The position numbers and the translations under genes were made by a program. From Paraneptunicella aestuarii (GTDB lineage Bacteria; Pseudomonadota; Gammaproteobacteria; Enterobacterales; Alteromonadaceae): a stretch of DNA of 64,000 bases. The stretch lies in NCBI RefSeq assembly GCF_019900845.1, contig NZ_CP074570.1, positions 124,001-188,000 of the forward strand. Direction: 5' to 3'. The stretch's first letter is position 1. Every line of letters starts with the position of its first letter. Below, piece after piece: positions 42,873-50,290 of the stretch. The notes beneath the pieces are model-generated. The model searched no databases and was not told the origin of the DNA. It worked only from the letters and a program-made list of their open reading frames with translations.

Positions 42873-44216
42873 TTATCTGTCAGCAATAATTTGCTTTAAT
42901 AATGCGCAATCTTGTACACATTGTGCTGCATATGTCTTGGCTAAAGACACTAAGTGATCTTGATGCAGAGGTAAAGTGTTTACCACGGATTGTTCAAACC
43001 GGGTCGAGCGACGATCACCACGACAATGAGCTAAGGCCAAGGCTTCACCACAGGTTCGGGCATAACTAGCCAATCCGGGTTCTTCACCTGTTTTGGCAAG
43101 GCCAATATGCTCAGGCTTGATGCCGACTTTCGCGTGATGACGAGAACGGACTAACCAGTGTTTGCCTTGCCACATGATATCGTCTAACACCAGATCGGGA
43201 CGGCGTTGCATTCGCTGTTGGCACATTACCGTTAAGTGCGCCGGATTCAGCCTGTTTGCCGGACTGCATAGTGGGCTGTCATCAGCAAAATGCTGCGCAG
43301 GCGCTGCCACGCGTTGCTGCTTAATTTCAACAATATGGCATAGAGGTAGATCTTCAATACCCGCATAATCTTGTGGGCCAACCAGCAAATAATATCGCCC
43401 CATATTCACAGAACCCGTTCCTGCACCAAGGCGTTCTGATACATCCAAAATAGCGTCGTCCACATAGGGACTAAAGGTATGAATAATCTCGTTTTTTAAT
43501 TCGTCTGAAACGGGCTTTAATTTAGCGGAAGGTTGGTTAAAAACCGGAAAGGTTTCCATATTACGAATAGCTTTAGCCAAGGCGCTTTTGGATGTGAAAT
43601 TCTTGCCACCTGCCGCTCGTTTTCGGGCTTTTTCGGCGAATTTACGCAGCACATGGCCTTTGGGGAAATCCATCAATACACGCTGACGTCCGCTTGGGTC
43701 AGCAATCAATAAATCACAGGTGCAAATATAAGCATCAAGAAAGCCTTCCTGAGCTTCGTCGAGCTCTTCGTTGTTTGCGGCGATGAAGTCATCCAGTGAT
43801 TCCAGCTCATCAGTAACATACTCACCAGCTAACAAGCCCTGACAATAATCCACAGTTAAATGTAGGCTGACCAAAAAGCGCAGTAAATCCCAACTGGCAT
43901 TGCCGACACAAGCATCATCAAAATCATTGGGCGCAAACACCACATTGTCGCCGTGAGAACCTTCCTCGGTGAAGAAACCAAAATTGGAAATATGGCAGTC
44001 GCCCACAATACAGGTACGCAAGTGCTTGCTATTCAGGGATTCAGGTAAAGATACAAAGCCAGAACGTAAATCGGCATACATCAAACTGGCAGAACCGCGC
44101 ATAAAACGAAAAGGATTCGTCGCCATCAGCTTATGCTTGGCTAAAGGCGTATCGCTGGTGGGACTCACCTTGTCGATACTCGTTAGTTCATCGCAGATTG
44201 TCTGGTGTCTTTGCAT
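42873..44216 (-). CDS. DUF2252 protein (kinase-like fold)
   Basis: 447-aa DUF2252 protein. The conserved segment TCIVGDCHISNFGFF with NDFDDACVGNASWDLLRF recalls the catalytic loop and DFD of aminoglycoside phosphotransferase-like kinases (GDxHxxN...D-F-D), and the N-terminus has the usual NPFRFMRGSA. Function is unknown. It starts 43 bp after the NACHT-LRR stop and is followed by phoD-like, so it may be co-transcribed with either group. Confidence 0.85.
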   Translation of the reverse strand: MQRHQTICDELTSIDKVSPTSDTPLAKHKLMATNPFRFMRGSASLMYADLRSGFVSLPESLNSKHLRTCIVGDCHISNFGFFTEEGSHGDNVVFAPNDFDDACVGNASWDLLRFLVSLHLTVDYCQGLLAGEYVTDELESLDDFIAANNEELDEAQEGFLDAYICTCDLLIADPSGRQRVLMDFPKGHVLRKFAEKARKRAAGGKNFTSKSALAKAIRNMETFPVFNQPSAKLKPVSDELKNEIIHTFSPYVDDAILDVSERLGAGTGSVNMGRYYLLVGPQDYAGIEDLPLCHIVEIKQQRVAAPAQHFADDSPLCSPANRLNPAHLTVMCQQRMQRRPDLVLDDIMWQGKHWLVRSRHHAKVGIKPEHIGLAKTGEEPGLASYARTCGEALALAHCRGDRRSTRFEQSVVNTLPLHQDHLVSLAKTYAAQCVQDCALLKQIIADR

Positions 44217-44259
44217 TCTTTTTGTTGTTTCATTTTCAGGAAAAGTTAAGCATTTTTTA

Positions 44260-46920
44260 TTAATTGGTATAAATACGTAGGTTTTTGTTTGTCTTTTTCA
44301 AAGAATCAATATCAAGCGTGTTATATTGCTCTTCATCTAGTGTTAGTTGGCCTAATTGATTAAGCTTTAAAAGTGGTTTTATGTTTTTAATTGGGTTTCC
44401 GTTGATTCTTAAGAATTGTAATTCTTTTAATAAGGAAAGCGGTGTTAAATCTTCTATCTGATTATTGTCAAGGTTTAAAAAGAATACGCTTTTAAGAGAT
44501 GATATAGCCGATAGGTCTTGAATTTTATTGTTTTGAAGTTCGAGCATTCTTAATTTTCTCAAAGGCTTAATAAAATCAATGTTTTTAATCTTTTGACTAA
44601 ATACAGAAAGCACTTCTAATGATTTTAAGTTGGAAATAGGTGTGAAGTCCTCAACATGATTACTTCCAATCTCTAGCCGCTCAAGTGATCTGATATTACA
44701 AATAGGTGAAATATCATCAATATCATTGTTTCGTAATATTAACGTTTCGAGGTTTTTATGCTTGGAGAGACCTGCAAAGTGACTAGTATCTTTTAGATTA
44801 CAATTACTTAAATCGAGCACAGTCAATGTTGGTAGTGCGAGTAGTTTGTCAAAATGCTCAGGTTTGAAAGCACTGCCTAACTTCAATATTTTAATCTCAG
44901 CATCAAGCATATAATCGGTTGAATTAAAGTTAGATGTCCAAAGACATCTTGTATAACTTAAAATATTTGATTCATGATAGAAATCAGGGATGAAAGATAA
45001 TTTTTTCCAACACTCTTGAATTGATTTGCTTCTGTCTGAAAGTTTAAATTTTAGAGTGGGGTTCATTATTACTTTAACGTGTAATAAATCCCTGGTGTGA
45101 ATGTTTTTCTCTTTAGCAATATCCGCAAAAAGAACGTCCTTCATTTTGGCTTGTTGAGTGCGAGAAGATTCCTCAAAAGCTAATTGCCAAACTTCTATCC
45201 AGCTTTCTTCGTTCGTACTTTTCTGAAATGTCTCAATATGTTCATCTTTCCATTCATTCCATTGCTGGCTTAAATAGTGTCCAGCAAAGTATTCTTGAAA
45301 TGAGAGGTGACTAAAAGAAAAGAACTCTTCAGTTTTATTGGTTTCGGGATTTAGCTGTTGTCCTTTAGGGATTAAAAAACCTGTCCGTTTCTTTAAAAAA
45401 GTAATGAGTTTTTTTGCTTCGTCTATAGCTTCTTGTGGTAATCCATTGCCTTCGCATGAGTCACAAATTAAGTCTGCTAATTGACTAGCAAAAAAGGATA
45501 AAAGTTCGCTGTACCAAACAGTAATTAAGCGTTGCTGAAAGCCTGTTGTATAGTGTGTTGAGATATTTCCGTTTGAGTCTTCAATTTGAAACTCTTCCTC
45601 TACAACGTCGAATTGAGGATCCTTTTCTGCAGTCATAAGAGATTGACTTACAATCTCTCCACACTGCATTTGCCAAGCCAGCTTGCCCAGCCAAAGCTTG
45701 ATATCGTCAAAATCATAGGCCATTTTGTCTGGTGTAAAACCGATATCTGTTTTTCTGGCACGATCCAGTGCTACCAAGTAAGTAGCTACAATGCGTTGAT
45801 ATAATTCGGCTCTACCATTAGGTAGTTGTCCTACCCGCCATTGAATAAAACAGATCATGGTCAGTAATACAGGATTACGGCTTAGCGCATCCAAATAAGG
45901 CGTTTCTGCACAAGTGTTACGCAAGGTTTCCGAAAAGGTTCTGGCATCGCTTTTCTTCGGTAAATATTGCTTAGTCCAGTTTTCTACATAGACATCTCGT
46001 CGGTTTTGATCAAATGGCGCGAGATAAAACTGTGGGTAAAGACTTTTTGTATGATAGTCAGTTATTCCCTCGTTAATTTTCGATGCTAGAGATTCTGAAT
46101 CATCAGCATTTTCTGATAATTGGGTATTCTCAGATTTACTTTCTTCATCTTCAATATTTTTACGTAACTTTAAAAGCTGCCAAAAATCATAGCTATCAAA
46201 ACCTACCACGCGCGCTGTCAGGATCAGGCGGACGCCAGGATATTCTGTTAAAAAGGTTTTTAGTTGCGATGATAACCAGCGCGATTTTTCGGTTGAGATT
46301 TCATCAATGCCATCGACGAGTAGAATGGCTTGCCCGGTTTTAAATGTGTCAAGCAATGTGCTATTAGCTTCACTTTCTTTAAGAGGTTCACCGATAGACC
46401 CCATGCTATTAATGATAGTGTCCAGAAAGTTGCTGTCTTCAGTATTCTTTTTACCTGCAAAGGGCAGCTTTCTTGCGGTAATGACGACAGGTAGTAATTC
46501 GCCCAGCCAACGTTTGGCGGTATTTTCACTGGTGTGAGACAGTGACAGAGACAGCCATTGAATAAAGGTTGATTTACCAATGCCGGGGTCGCCTAGCAGC
46601 GTGACACGAGGGTTTTCCTGAATCACTTTAGACAAATCGTTTAACTGTTCTCTATCTTCGCCTTTTTTCAGTTTGATAATTTCATCGGGGTCTATGCGTT
46701 TTTCCGATGCAGCGGGGAAGACATACAAGGAATCAAGCGTGATTTTATTGGATGAACCCGTGTATTCCTGATCATCCATAGCCAAGCCCTGGTTATCCAG
46801 AAAACGAGTGTCTTGACGTAATAGTTCCAGATAGCGACGTAACGGAGAGCTGTGTAACTTGATAAATTGTTTGCTATCAGGTTCAACAAATTGCGGTAAT
46901 GGGGTAAATGGTGCAGTCAT
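44260..46920 (-). CDS. NACHT NTPase with leucine-rich repeats
   Basis: 886-aa STAND-type protein. N-terminal region to about residue 95 is not recognised. The NACHT core has Walker A GDPGIGKST (110-118), Walker B ILLVDGIDEIS (199-209) with the NACHT-type extra acidic residues, the sensor segment LILTARVVGF (232-241) and the terminal FSFSHLSFQEYFAGHYL (534-550) that marks NACHT winged helices. About eight 22-residue SDS22/internalin-like LRRs follow (about 690-880; L-x2-L-x-L-x2-N-x-I-x-D-I-x-PL). No TIR, protease or nuclease domain is visible. The LRR part is visibly more AT-rich. 17 bp downstream of the KAP gene. Bacterial NACHT proteins are established anti-phage defenders; the role here is inferred. 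Confidence 0.9.
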   Translation of the reverse strand: MTAPFTPLPQFVEPDSKQFIKLHSSPLRRYLELLRQDTRFLDNQGLAMDDQEYTGSSNKITLDSLYVFPAASEKRIDPDEIIKLKKGEDREQLNDLSKVIQENPRVTLLGDPGIGKSTFIQWLSLSLSHTSENTAKRWLGELLPVVITARKLPFAGKKNTEDSNFLDTIINSMGSIGEPLKESEANSTLLDTFKTGQAILLVDGIDEISTEKSRWLSSQLKTFLTEYPGVRLILTARVVGFDSYDFWQLLKLRKNIEDEESKSENTQLSENADDSESLASKINEGITDYHTKSLYPQFYLAPFDQNRRDVYVENWTKQYLPKKSDARTFSETLRNTCAETPYLDALSRNPVLLTMICFIQWRVGQLPNGRAELYQRIVATYLVALDRARKTDIGFTPDKMAYDFDDIKLWLGKLAWQMQCGEIVSQSLMTAEKDPQFDVVEEEFQIEDSNGNISTHYTTGFQQRLITVWYSELLSFFASQLADLICDSCEGNGLPQEAIDEAKKLITFLKKRTGFLIPKGQQLNPETNKTEEFFSFSHLSFQEYFAGHYLSQQWNEWKDEHIETFQKSTNEESWIEVWQLAFEESSRTQQAKMKDVLFADIAKEKNIHTRDLLHVKVIMNPTLKFKLSDRSKSIQECWKKLSFIPDFYHESNILSYTRCLWTSNFNSTDYMLDAEIKILKLGSAFKPEHFDKLLALPTLTVLDLSNCNLKDTSHFAGLSKHKNLETLILRNNDIDDISPICNIRSLERLEIGSNHVEDFTPISNLKSLEVLSVFSQKIKNIDFIKPLRKLRMLELQNNKIQDLSAISSLKSVFFLNLDNNQIEDLTPLSLLKELQFLRINGNPIKNIKPLLKLNQLGQLTLDEEQYNTLDIDSLKKTNKNLRIYTN

Positions 46921-46937
46921 GATACGTCTTCTTGTTA

Positions 46938-48293
46938 CTATTGATGACCATTATAGAGTCTGATCAGCTGTTTTAATACGTCTTTAAAGTCGGATTGTTG
47001 GCCTGCCAGGCCAATATCCTGAATGATTTTTTGTGGCCTAAAAATATTTAGGGACGAGGGGTGAACCCCGATATATTCAACTGATGGTTTAGGCTGCCTG
47101 ATGCCATCTAATGGACTGTTTTCAATTGCTTCGTCGGCAAATTCGAAACTCTCATTGGTGAAATCATCAAGCTTGTCATAGAAATTGATATCCCATTCTA
47201 ACTGTTCGTAGATTTGACGGTAGCTGACATACAAGCAGCTCAAGAGTGTAATGCCTTTCACTGCCAGAGCATTGGGAGCTTCATCCTGATACTTCCAGTT
47301 TCTTAGGTAGCTTGCCATTCTATTGATGGTCATTTTTACCCTGCGAGGGTTAGCGGGTAAGCAAGCGCTTTCCATAACCACATCTTTGATTTCACTCGCT
47401 GTGACGCCAATTTCAACAACATTTTCGTGCTGTTTGAATATCTGATTTAATTCTTTTTCTATCAGGTTTGCGCCCTGTTCTTGCGACATAAGTGGCAAGC
47501 GGTGGGCATCTTGGCAAAGCTTCTCTAAATATTCGACGCCAACAAAATGATGCGAGGCATTATCGCCCAGTTCTTTTTTCACGACTTGTTCAAGTTGCGA
47601 TTGGTCGATCGCCATAACAATGACGCAATTGGGGATGCTGAGATACAGCTTGAGCCCTTCTAATAACTTTAATGCAGCCTCGGGTTGGCAGCGATCCAGG
47701 TCGTCGATAAAGATGATCAGCTTGCGTTTGCCTTCCTTTTTGTCTTTTACTAACGCACTGATAGCTTCCTGTAAGGCCAAGTGGATCATGTCTGTTGGCA
47801 ACATACTCAGTAAGTTATCTTTCTCGTATTTTTCCCCTAGTTTGGGCAGGTTTTTAAAATCCGTTTGCGCGCCTGTTGCCGCTTTTATTACGGAGTCAAA
47901 AATACTGAGTGAACCCAGAAATGCCACATCTACCAGTTTTTTCATACTGCCTTTGAGCTTTTGTAAACGGGTGAACTCTTGCTTGATGGAATGCAACAAG
48001 GCAACGATGGGTTGGGCTTCATTTTGATATCGCCAGGCTTCAAACCAGATTCCAACGAAATGTTCTTTTGTTTGATTGTCTGATATTTCCCCTTTAAACG
48101 GCGGAGGACGATTGGTGAGCTTTTGATAAACCTGTGCCAGTGCGGATGTTTTACCACTGCCCCAATAGCCAGTAATCGCGATGGTTTTTGGTGGCTCTGA
48201 CTGTTTTATTTCTTCGGCAATTTGACTGACAAAGTGACGATAGAAATCGTCAGTCTCCATGTATGGAATGTCATTGAGTGTTTTATGAGACAT
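46938..48293 (-). CDS. KAP-family P-loop NTPase
   Basis: 451-aa KAP NTPase. Walker A GYWGSGKTS (42-50), the KAP hallmark WFEAWRYQNE (83-92), Walker B LIIFIDDLDRC (192-202) and an AID-x-S sensor segment (VMAIDQSQLEQ) are intact; NPRRVKMTINR near residue 325 is the KAP arginine region. The membrane insertion of many KAP proteins is at most weakly present (about 119-140). ATG 48293 with AGGAA 9 bases upstream is chosen over TTG 48368. It sits between a small membrane protein and the NACHT-LRR gene. Confidence 0.9.
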   Translation of the reverse strand: MSHKTLNDIPYMETDDFYRHFVSQIAEEIKQSEPPKTIAITGYWGSGKTSALAQVYQKLTNRPPPFKGEISDNQTKEHFVGIWFEAWRYQNEAQPIVALLHSIKQEFTRLQKLKGSMKKLVDVAFLGSLSIFDSVIKAATGAQTDFKNLPKLGEKYEKDNLLSMLPTDMIHLALQEAISALVKDKKEGKRKLIIFIDDLDRCQPEAALKLLEGLKLYLSIPNCVIVMAIDQSQLEQVVKKELGDNASHHFVGVEYLEKLCQDAHRLPLMSQEQGANLIEKELNQIFKQHENVVEIGVTASEIKDVVMESACLPANPRRVKMTINRMASYLRNWKYQDEAPNALAVKGITLLSCLYVSYRQIYEQLEWDINFYDKLDDFTNESFEFADEAIENSPLDGIRQPKPSVEYIGVHPSSLNIFRPQKIIQDIGLAGQQSDFKDVLKQLIRLYNGHQ

Positions 48294-48370
48294 AGAAGAA
48301 CTTCCTTGATGATGCCTTAGGGTATATAGCTTGCCATGAAAGCTAACCAGCGATGGGGGTAAAGTCAATG

Positions 48371-48404
48371 TTTCAGGCTAATTTATGTCTCCTTGTGCCT
48401 GAAA
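48371..48404 (-). terminator. intercistronic hairpin between the membrane protein and KAP genes
   Basis: Perfect 8-bp arms TTTCAGGC and GCCTGAAA with an 18-nt loop, placed between the stop at 48426 and the KAP start at 48293. No T-run follows, so partial attenuation or processing rather than strong termination is likely. Confidence 0.45.
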
Positions 48405-48425
48405 GTTAATCCATTTTCTGTGGCT

Positions 48426-48932
48426 CTACTTATCTAACTGCGCAGGCTTGTCGAACGCGGCATATAGCTGTCGACCATCTCTTGCTTTAAGGACTTGTAC
48501 CTGTGGGTTAGAGCCCAGTATTTGTTGTACTTTGTCTTTGGGGATTTTGACGTCTTTTGCGATGCCATCGAGGGTTCTGTATTTAAATCGTGGATTTTTC
48601 AATGCCACGTTTAATACCTTGTCGATTTCTAATTCGGTGGGTTCTTTTTGTGTGAATTTTTCTTTGTCTGGCGTGGTTTTTCCCATCGTTTTCATTTGCT
48701 CTTCCAGTGCATCTAGCCTTTCTTTTATTGGGTCGAGATCTTGATCCAGATTATCTGCCAGATCGCTTAATTCAATAGATCTATCACCCCAGGTTATTTT
48801 CAGGTTGGAACGGTCTACCAGATTTCGGATCTGTCTTCTGGTTACGTAGATTAGAGTGCTTACCAGAATAAAGAGAAGGAAAGGCCAATCTAGCAGCTTG
48901 AGTACAATTTGCAGGGCTTCGGATTGTTCCAT
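48426..48932 (-). CDS. membrane-anchored coiled-coil / winged-helix-like protein
   Basis: 168-aa protein not assigned to a named family. One membrane segment at about 14-31 (DWPFLLFILVSTLIYVT), a basic stop-transfer, an acidic heptad region (about 53-83, LADNLDQDLDPIKERLDALEEQ, cut) likely coiled coil, a charged linker, and a C-terminal 65 residues with a winged-helix look (EIDKVLNVALKNPRFKYRT, then LDGIAKDVKIPKDKVQQIL, then a beta wing VQVLKARDGRQLYAAF). First gene of the KAP-NACHT unit, behind a sigma-70-like promoter. It could tether or sense for the two NTPases. Confidence 0.7.
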   Translation of the reverse strand: MEQSEALQIVLKLLDWPFLLFILVSTLIYVTRRQIRNLVDRSNLKITWGDRSIELSDLADNLDQDLDPIKERLDALEEQMKTMGKTTPDKEKFTQKEPTELEIDKVLNVALKNPRFKYRTLDGIAKDVKIPKDKVQQILGSNPQVQVLKARDGRQLYAAFDKPAQLDK

Positions 48933-48956
48933 TGAATTTCTCTGTTTTTTACACTA

Positions 48957-48984
48957 AAAATAGTTGAGTCATTTCACCCGTCAA
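48957..48984 (-). promoter_or_regulatory. candidate promoter of the KAP-NACHT operon
   Basis: On the minus strand TTGACG (48984-48979), 16-bp spacer, TATTTT (48962-48957). A transcript would start near 48950, some 18 nt before the ATG at 48932. Confidence 0.5.
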
Positions 48985-48991
48985 GGCAGGA

Positions 48992-49010
48992 ATAGCATTG
49001 AATATGCTAT
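48992..49010. promoter_or_regulatory. inverted repeat upstream of the KAP-NACHT promoter
   Basis: Perfect 7-bp arms ATAGCAT-tgaat-ATGCTAT, placed 8 bp upstream of the -35 box on the minus strand and between divergent genes. The position suits an operator of a dimeric regulator. Confidence 0.4.
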
Positions 49011-49123
49011 ACGTTGATATAACTACTCTTGTCATAATTTGCACGATATGAACTTAAGATTGTCATCAACATCATGTAGACTCGTGATTTTTGTACATAC
49101 CTCATACTAGTTGGAGTGGAGCA

Positions 49124-50290
49124 GTGATTAACAGGTTGTTTGGGGTCGAGGGCTCTTTTTCTTTTATGCGCTTTTCCGGTTTAGGTTTTTCATTACTGAG
49201 CTTATTTACGTTTCCTGTATTGGCAGACGAGACTAGTGCTGCCGTGTTTCAAGATGCTCCCATTGAAATGAAAAGCATTTGGGTAAAAAACAGCGAAGGT
49301 AAGGTGGTTGAAGATCCGCAAACTTCTGCCTTGGTGTATTGGCGTGGACGTATTCTGAGTATTGGTGATGGTAGTGCTCGTCATGCCATGCGTTTGCAAC
49401 TATTGCCTATTGATCCTGCTACCGCGCAGATGTCTGATGAAACGATTTCTCTGGTTCAATCTAAAGAAGTGAAAAATGGCTGTTTTAGCGGTTATCTTTC
49501 CTATGGCCCTGATTTGGAAGCGGTTGCGGCAGATCCTGATAATGACAAAGTCTTTATCATCGCAACTGAAGACGCTTATCGTTTTACTCTGAAAGACGAG
49601 TGTTTTAGAAAGTACGGTAATACTGGTTCTACTGTTCACCCTACCTTGTTGTTGCGTGCTGAATTGGTGTCAGACACCAAAGCCATGATTACGCATGTTA
49701 AGGCGGTGCGTTTTCCAAAAGAATACAAGGTGGGTAATTCACCGAATGATGGTATTGAAGGGCTGGTATTTGGCGCTGGACGAACCCTTTATTTGGGGTT
49801 GGAAAAAGATACCAAGGGTAAAGCGCGAGTGTTTGAAGTTAATGTAGATAAAGACTTCTGGAACCGTGATGAAATGGCGGTTGTTGCCGACAGCAAGCTA
49901 TTAATGCCTGAGATCAACGATGGTGGAAACCATCCAATTAATGCTTTGGCTTATTATCCTACCAGCGACAAAGATGGGTTCTTATTCGCTGCTGCCCGGA
50001 ACGATAATCAAATCTGGATTTTAGACACGGCGCGTAAAAAGCCGACGACTGTGGTGAAGATGGAATTTTTGGCTCAGTCGCTGGATGATGCTTGTCCTTC
50101 CTGGGAGAAGATGAATAACTACTCTATTGAAGGTATGACCTTTATTGATAATACCTTGTACATGATTAATGATCCCTGGAAAGTGAACTACCAAAAAAAC
50201 GCTACCTGTAAAGCGATGGAGCCTTACTACAAGGCGATGGCGCCGTTGTTGACTCATGTTGATGTTTTGCCTGAGTGGGTGAGTCGCTAA
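49124..50290 (+). CDS. secreted beta-propeller-like protein
   Basis: About 388 aa. A signal peptide (MRFSGLGFSLLSLFTFPVLA, cleavage before DETSAA) lies 14 residues into the GTG-started frame; GTG 49124 has GGAG upstream, ATG 49166 would begin exactly at the signal peptide. The body repeats strands such as LEAVAADPDNDKVFIIATED, DGIEGLVFGAGRTLYLGLE and IEGMTFIDNTLYMINDP, as in SdiA-regulated or phytase/esterase-like propellers. Two to three Cys pairs (CFSGY, ECFRK, DACPS, ATCKA) suggest periplasmic disulfides. No enzymatic motif is certain. Divergent from the KAP-NACHT operon. Confidence 0.7.
   Translation: MINRLFGVEGSFSFMRFSGLGFSLLSLFTFPVLADETSAAVFQDAPIEMKSIWVKNSEGKVVEDPQTSALVYWRGRILSIGDGSARHAMRLQLLPIDPATAQMSDETISLVQSKEVKNGCFSGYLSYGPDLEAVAADPDNDKVFIIATEDAYRFTLKDECFRKYGNTGSTVHPTLLLRAELVSDTKAMITHVKAVRFPKEYKVGNSPNDGIEGLVFGAGRTLYLGLEKDTKGKARVFEVNVDKDFWNRDEMAVVADSKLLMPEINDGGNHPINALAYYPTSDKDGFLFAAARNDNQIWILDTARKKPTTVVKMEFLAQSLDDACPSWEKMNNYSIEGMTFIDNTLYMINDPWKVNYQKNATCKAMEPYYKAMAPLLTHVDVLPEWVSR

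Follow-up and report, generated by a model that had tools for sequence, protein, structure and literature searches.

The window analyzed in this study is a 64,000-nucleotide stretch of DNA from Paraneptunicella aestuarii, whose genome consists of one contig of 4.91 Mb (the window is at G000:C1:124001-188000). On its minus strand, the window carries a gene for a KAP-family P-loop ATPase (46938–48293; 451 amino acid residues; Pfam KAP_NTPase, 1.3e-31), which is followed after 17 bp by a gene for a protein with a NACHT domain and leucine-rich repeats (LRRs), referred to here as NACHT-LRR (44260–46920; 886 residues; Pfam NACHT, 5.9e-8, and LRR_4, 6.1e-22). Comparisons with other genomes indicate that KAP and NACHT-LRR are a conserved, tightly spaced and co-inherited mobile two-gene unit. 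Given that this pair travels as a cassette in many bacteria as well as in prophages, it is probably a two-part, and probably an undescribed, defense against viruses. A role in defense is likely, and we favor with reasonable confidence a mobile two-gene anti-phage system, probably abortive, in which NACHT-LRR would be a sensor of the bacterial NLR type and KAP would form a ring. An initial annotation of this DNA had grouped the pair with a third gene (gene 1; 48426–48932, minus strand; 168 residues), 132 bp upstream of KAP. Its gene coordinates and gaps as well as its KAP and NACHT-LRR domain assignments were reproduced with the list of open reading frames (ORFs) and Pfam. An alternative TTG start of KAP at 48368 would add 25 residues relative to the ATG.

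The linkage between KAP and NACHT-LRR was found in both search directions and far beyond chance, which bears out, for two of the three families, the co-occurrence that the initial annotation had proposed to look for. A KAP-alignment scan of one genome per species for 84,980 species returned at least 593 stretches, and the best 80 of 182 relatives were kept. In the 24 nearest loci (L044–L067), a NACHT gene was directly downstream of KAP in all 22 that were testable, the other two (L055 and L057) ending at a contig edge; L044, which is on the same contig as L040, was counted once. An adjacent NACHT gene was found in none of the 54 testable loci among the 56 farther ones, with the boundary between L067 and L068 drawn after the data had been seen. 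In one of the farther loci (L116), a NACHT gene was on the opposite strand at a non-adjacent position 3.4 kb away. Moreover, seven of eight further strong KAP matches in 398 phylum genomes had the pair and the eighth was at a contig edge. Among 13 KAP loci of class genomes, the pair was found in 2 and was missing from 9, and 2 were at contig edges. When the NACHT core was used to search 299 phylum genomes, KAP was directly upstream in 8 of the 9 best matches, of which 7 had already been counted in the KAP searches and one was the window's own, the 299 genomes being largely the same sample. The ninth (L181) had just 180 bp of upstream sequence. Among the weaker NACHT matches, with E values from 1e-39 upward, no KAP was seen in the visible upstream sequence (0 to ~1 kb), except for a 15-bit KAP match inside one NACHT gene. 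Within the genomes sampled, the pairing is, as judged from these alignments, confined to a single branch of each family.

The spacing between KAP and NACHT-LRR ranged from a 4-bp overlap to 22 bp in 14 of the 22 loci, and the larger overlaps mostly came from ORF calls extended upstream. The distances among the KAP proteins were also closely correlated with those among their NACHT partners (Mantel r = 0.958 for 26 pairs; none of 10000 permutations reached as high a value). This comparison leaves out L051, L055, L057, L059 and L066, which were cut or split; in L051 and L066, KAP is divided between two frames, and no correction was applied.

The distribution of the pair is patchy. It was found in 4 of 147 family/order relatives and in 3 of 369 class genomes, the window's own genome included in both; NACHT matches in 24 of the 147 relatives were mostly to the LRRs only and were excluded from the copy counts. 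The hosts include Alteromonas, Shewanella, Pseudoalteromonas, Methylomonas and Lysobacter, as well as metagenome-assembled genomes (MAGs) of Nitrosomonas, Gallionella, Accumulibacter, Planctomycetota, Verrucomicrobia, Acidobacteria, Armatimonadota and Desulfococcaceae. The pair is neither core and syntenic nor unlinked elsewhere, either of which the initial annotation had named as counting against its proposal. No match was found in E. coli genomes by megablast. One distant KAP (E 1e-16) was found in plasmids, and the window KAP had no match at 1e-8 in named phages. The NACHT-LRR of one viral contig (L148) matched 10 Listeria phage records, via its LRR part only.

Comparisons of flanking genes revealed empty sites both in chromosomes and in phages. 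The DUF2252 gene (42873–44216, minus strand) and the phytase-like gene (49091–50290, plus strand), which flank the pair and gene 1 in the window and are outside the system, adjoin each other in G001, a genome of the same genus (126 bp apart), and in G034 (102 bp apart). In the window, 4,874 bp lie between the two ORFs (44217–49090, no strand assigned), corresponding to an insertion of ~4.8 kb that is missing from the equivalent site in both G001 and G034. The G001 genome carries the pair, without gene 1, at another site. No signs of insertion sequences, target duplications or flanking repeats were recognized at the ends of the block. All four IMG/VR contigs encoding a KAP relative carry the full pair (L148–L151). 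In L148–L150, the gene order is integrase, KAP, NACHT-LRR and excisionase, with nothing else between integrase and excisionase; these two were assigned with PHROGs on L148 alone and on L149 and L150 by identities of 90.5–93% and 73–84%, respectively. In L151, the pair is preceded by tail and spanin genes. In Pseudomonas phages Haddon and F1Pa, the integrase and excisionase genes overlap or are 9 bp apart, with no pair between them. Their kinship to L148 was shown at least by the integrase, and the Haddon integrase, annotated as "hypothetical protein," was named from its alignment to L148. Thus, by sequence comparison, empty sites exist in chromosomes and in phages, and the pair alone is phage cargo. 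A viral scan with NACHT returned eight loci, which were the four contigs with the pair, L210, which is cut by a contig end and begins within the gene, and three distant loci (L211–L213) in which no KAP was found.

Other mobility- and defense-related genes were observed near some chromosomal copies. In Alteromonas sp. a30, the pair has a tyrosine recombinase gene (L040:5734-6723; Phage_integrase, 1.2e-37) ~2 kb upstream. In G014, a gene for a 1105-residue helicase that matches Mokosh MkoC with 226 bits (L041:4534-7851) is directly downstream of the pair, and an IS4/5-family transposase gene is nearby.

The cargo position beside the prophage integrase, together with the recombinase near the Alteromonas copy, is also consistent with an exclusion cassette that mainly serves the mobile elements themselves, through superinfection exclusion or competition between elements, with the chromosomal copies being relics or domesticated. 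However, most copies found are in bacterial contigs, their listed neighbors do not, on inspection by eye, resemble phage genes and their motifs are intact. Moreover, the mechanism of such a cassette would equal that of the anti-phage system proposed here. We therefore regard this alternative as unlikely and retain the anti-phage reading.

The NACHT-LRR protein is predicted from its sequence to combine a sensor with a switch. Its NACHT P-loop domain (46204–46605, minus strand; residues 106–239) contains the Walker A motif GDPGIGKS and the Walker B motif LLVDGIDE, and the Walker motifs were conserved in every aligned partner that includes this stretch. Of the 29 aligned partners, 24 were scanned with Pfam (all but L043, L051, L059, L061 and L067); NACHT was found in 24 and LRR_4 in 23 of them. 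The LRRs (44320–44832, minus strand; approximately residues 697–867) are of the internalin/SDS22 type by sequence as well as in the predicted model (mean pLDDT 79.8), in agreement with the SDS22-like assignment of the initial annotation. The NACHT core is preceded by 104 residues in the window protein and by 79–140 residues in 27 of the 29 partners, the other two having longer N-terminal parts because their ORF calls run upstream. Residues 1–86 of the window protein had no Pfam match at E 0.1, which leaves room for a small novel domain, and no nuclease, TIR or protease domain was recognized by Pfam in any of the 24 proteins scanned, as had also been noted initially for the three genes. A sequence search for solved relatives of the NACHT core returned none at E 0.001, and in the fold comparison of the predicted model the matches were taken up by LRR proteins, so that the NACHT part was barely probed. 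PADLOC returned only weak matches to mad8/DpdH for the window protein, and five of six further partners had no match at 1e-4. NACHT-LRR is thus predicted to be a bacterial NLR without a recognizable N-terminal effector domain. One NACHT partner without an LRR match (L043:9089-12334, G030) has a long low-complexity stretch rich in SR/LG dipeptides in its C-terminal half, which may be another type of sensor or an expanded repeat.

The LRRs are the fastest-diverging part of the pair. Among the prophage copies L148–L150, the identities were 90.5–93% for the integrase, 83–91% for KAP, 75–84% for the NACHT core and 40–52% for the LRR tail. Between L148 and L149, the nonsynonymous divergence (dN) was 0.049 for KAP, 0.106 for NACHT and 0.406 for the LRRs; dN was compared alone because synonymous divergence (dS) was saturated, and relaxed constraint and positive selection are indistinguishable in these values. 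Similarly, the identities between the window and G001 were 59% for KAP, 60% for NACHT and 32% for the LRRs. Fastest divergence in the LRRs fits the pattern expected of a sensor. The prophage copies, with their diverged LRRs and much more constant KAP and NACHT, are also naturally suited to mapping what is recognized by the LRRs.

The pair could instead have a function other than defense, as a STAND regulator with a KAP partner that controls a cellular process in the manner of MalT for the maltose genes. STAND proteins also act as regulators, MalT being an example (PMC10427625), and many copies stand alone among genes that look ordinary by eye. A conflict role, however, better fits the patchy distribution over several phyla, the unrelated insertion sites, the prophage cargo and the fast-diverging LRRs, which renders a purely regulatory role improbable. 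A mobile anti-phage system remains the preferred reading.

The best structural match of the predicted KAP model was RdrA, the ring ATPase of RADAR. In this model comparison, the 451-residue KAP aligned to residues 18–493 of the 836-residue RdrA chain. The initial annotation had described KAP as soluble. Its family assignment was confirmed and no clear transmembrane segment was found; one qualification is the helix of residues 120–138, which is moderately hydrophobic (1.5). The hydrophobicity of the aligned helix was 1.12 or less in 23 of 30 KAPs and 1.16–1.92 in the window KAP, L040, L045–L048 and L050. Given the low values in the 23, the possibility that KAP is a membrane protein was set aside; KAP is taken as soluble from its sequence, and the helix may be membrane-associated in the window's own clade. 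All 27 aligned KAPs matched the PDC-S20, QatA and PifA models distantly, and the scores of the window KAP against these models were no more than 111 bits.

The pair shares parts with several known systems. Similar to RADAR, which consists of RdrA and RdrB, it includes an ATPase with a predicted RdrA-like KAP/AAA+ fold. Different from RADAR, the C-terminal helical domain of RdrA is missing from KAP, no RdrB deaminase adjoins it and its partner is an NLR; the near neighbors of the pair in the Pfam scan were gene 1, DUF2252, PhoD-like and phytase-like genes. RdrA is reported to be a heptamer (PMC9994260), and QatA, another KAP, is described as binding DNA and forming a heptamer or octamer (PMC13279940). 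The KAP family is shared with QatA of Qat. The window KAP, however, scored 93.6 bits against the NCBIfam QatA cut-off of 600, and the scanned neighbors were not QatBCD. PifA is also of the KAP family and its model was matched distantly. The score against the PADLOC candidate PDC-S20 was 110.8 bits, read without a PADLOC threshold for that model.

Bacterial proteins that combine NACHT with LRR sensors are termed bona fide bacterial NLRs in a paper that describes bacterial NLRs as tripartite, their effector domain being at the N-terminus (PMC12169576). Members of bNACHT clade 14 are reported to lack a readily discernible N-terminal effector. Similar to bNACHT proteins and bacterial NLRs, the present protein has a central NACHT domain with intact Walker A and B motifs and C-terminal LRRs; different from them, no effector domain was found before NACHT, and KAP was adjacent in every testable near copy. 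Counter-invader operons centered on Orc/CDC6 also place a KAP NTPase and NACHT in one mobile neighborhood, where the NACHT (STAND) module is fused to Orc/CDC6, a second Orc/CDC6 gene is present and, in the passage on these operons, no LRR pair is described (PMC10853773). In conflict systems, KAP can stand in for STAND NTPases, according to remarks in two papers (PMC8195603; PMC10907252). No published pair of KAP and NACHT-LRR was found in the literature searched; the main bNACHT survey (Kibby 2023) was outside it, so a description there is possible.

In the plausible mechanism that we infer, the LRRs would recognize a phage product or a disturbed host protein, upon which the NACHT module would exchange nucleotide and oligomerize. 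The short N-terminal segment of NACHT-LRR (104 residues here) could then engage KAP and thereby assemble or unlock a KAP ring, whose ATP-driven action, either nucleic-acid loading or runaway hydrolysis, would stop the cell or the phage. We tentatively suggest, as a possibility that falls somewhat short of the better-supported defense role, that the pair is a split bacterial inflammasome, in which an NLR without an enzymatic effector of its own drives a dedicated, adjacent RdrA-like KAP ring ATPase. Animal NLRs are also built on NACHT and LRRs, and NACHT-LRR resembles the NLR immune receptors that animals and plants have. If true, the split inflammasome would unite two types of immunity, NLR and RADAR, within a single mobile system of two genes, and its killing step would require no nuclease, NADase or protease. 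A widespread bacterial NLR with no recognizable effector, tied genetically to a ring-type ATPase, raises the question of whether an NLR can relay its signal to an AAA+ partner ring and, further, how a KAP ring acts without an enzymatic effector.

Two other KAP loci were also observed. In a Phycisphaerales MAG, KAP and LRRs are in one 771-residue protein (L104:6818-9133; KAP_NTPase, 2.3e-33; LRR_4, 6.1e-26), which, as judged from its domains, is an independent KAP–LRR link. In the window's own genome, a second, different KAP heads a tight operon at ~3.512 Mb of G000:C1 (L042:8324-15997), together with genes for a 1080-residue protein that matches PDC-M43B near its C-terminus and looks like a histidine kinase by eye, a 179-residue protein that looks like a receiver by eye and an 853-residue protein. 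This operon is possibly another conflict system.

Different from the pair, gene 1 had no homolog in any collection searched with it. Only its self-match was found in the 147 family/order and 369 class genomes (its own genome in both), and it had no match in plasmids, phages and viral contigs; the 84,980-species collection was not searched with gene 1. Relatives of gene 1 were also absent wherever a locus with another copy of the pair was checked for them, and its C-terminal piece gave four matches of E 1 or more to a Rhizobium oxidoreductase. The three-part set proposed in the initial annotation thus did not recur within these searches. The same annotation had described gene 1 as membrane-anchored and coiled-coil/winged-helix-like. 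A single strongly hydrophobic stretch was confirmed at residues 10–28 (Kyte-Doolittle 2.0), the hydrophilic remainder resembles a coiled coil by eye, and the only trace of a winged helix was a sub-threshold Sigma70_r3 match (Pfam, E 0.01). Nor was one promoter for the three genes apparent, since promoter-like sites numbered 11 against 12.3 in shuffled sequences. Since gene 1 did not turn up beside the other copies checked, a membrane tether formed by it, as initially envisaged, cannot be the general mode of action of the pair. A three-part system, in which gene 1 would be the membrane tether and a membrane-damaging effector released by the NLR and KAP, is the least probable explanation: gene 1 has one hydrophobic helix and lies upstream in the same orientation and inside the same insertion, but no relative accompanies the other copies checked and the integrase-to-excisionase interval of the prophages holds the pair alone. 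Gene 1 is at most a local addition, either an accessory in this strain or a passenger.

At the other end of the inserted block, only 43 bp (44217–44259) lie between the stop codon of NACHT-LRR and the start of the DUF2252 gene after the insertion. Judging from these coordinates, the DUF2252 gene of the window may have lost its own promoter through the insertion.

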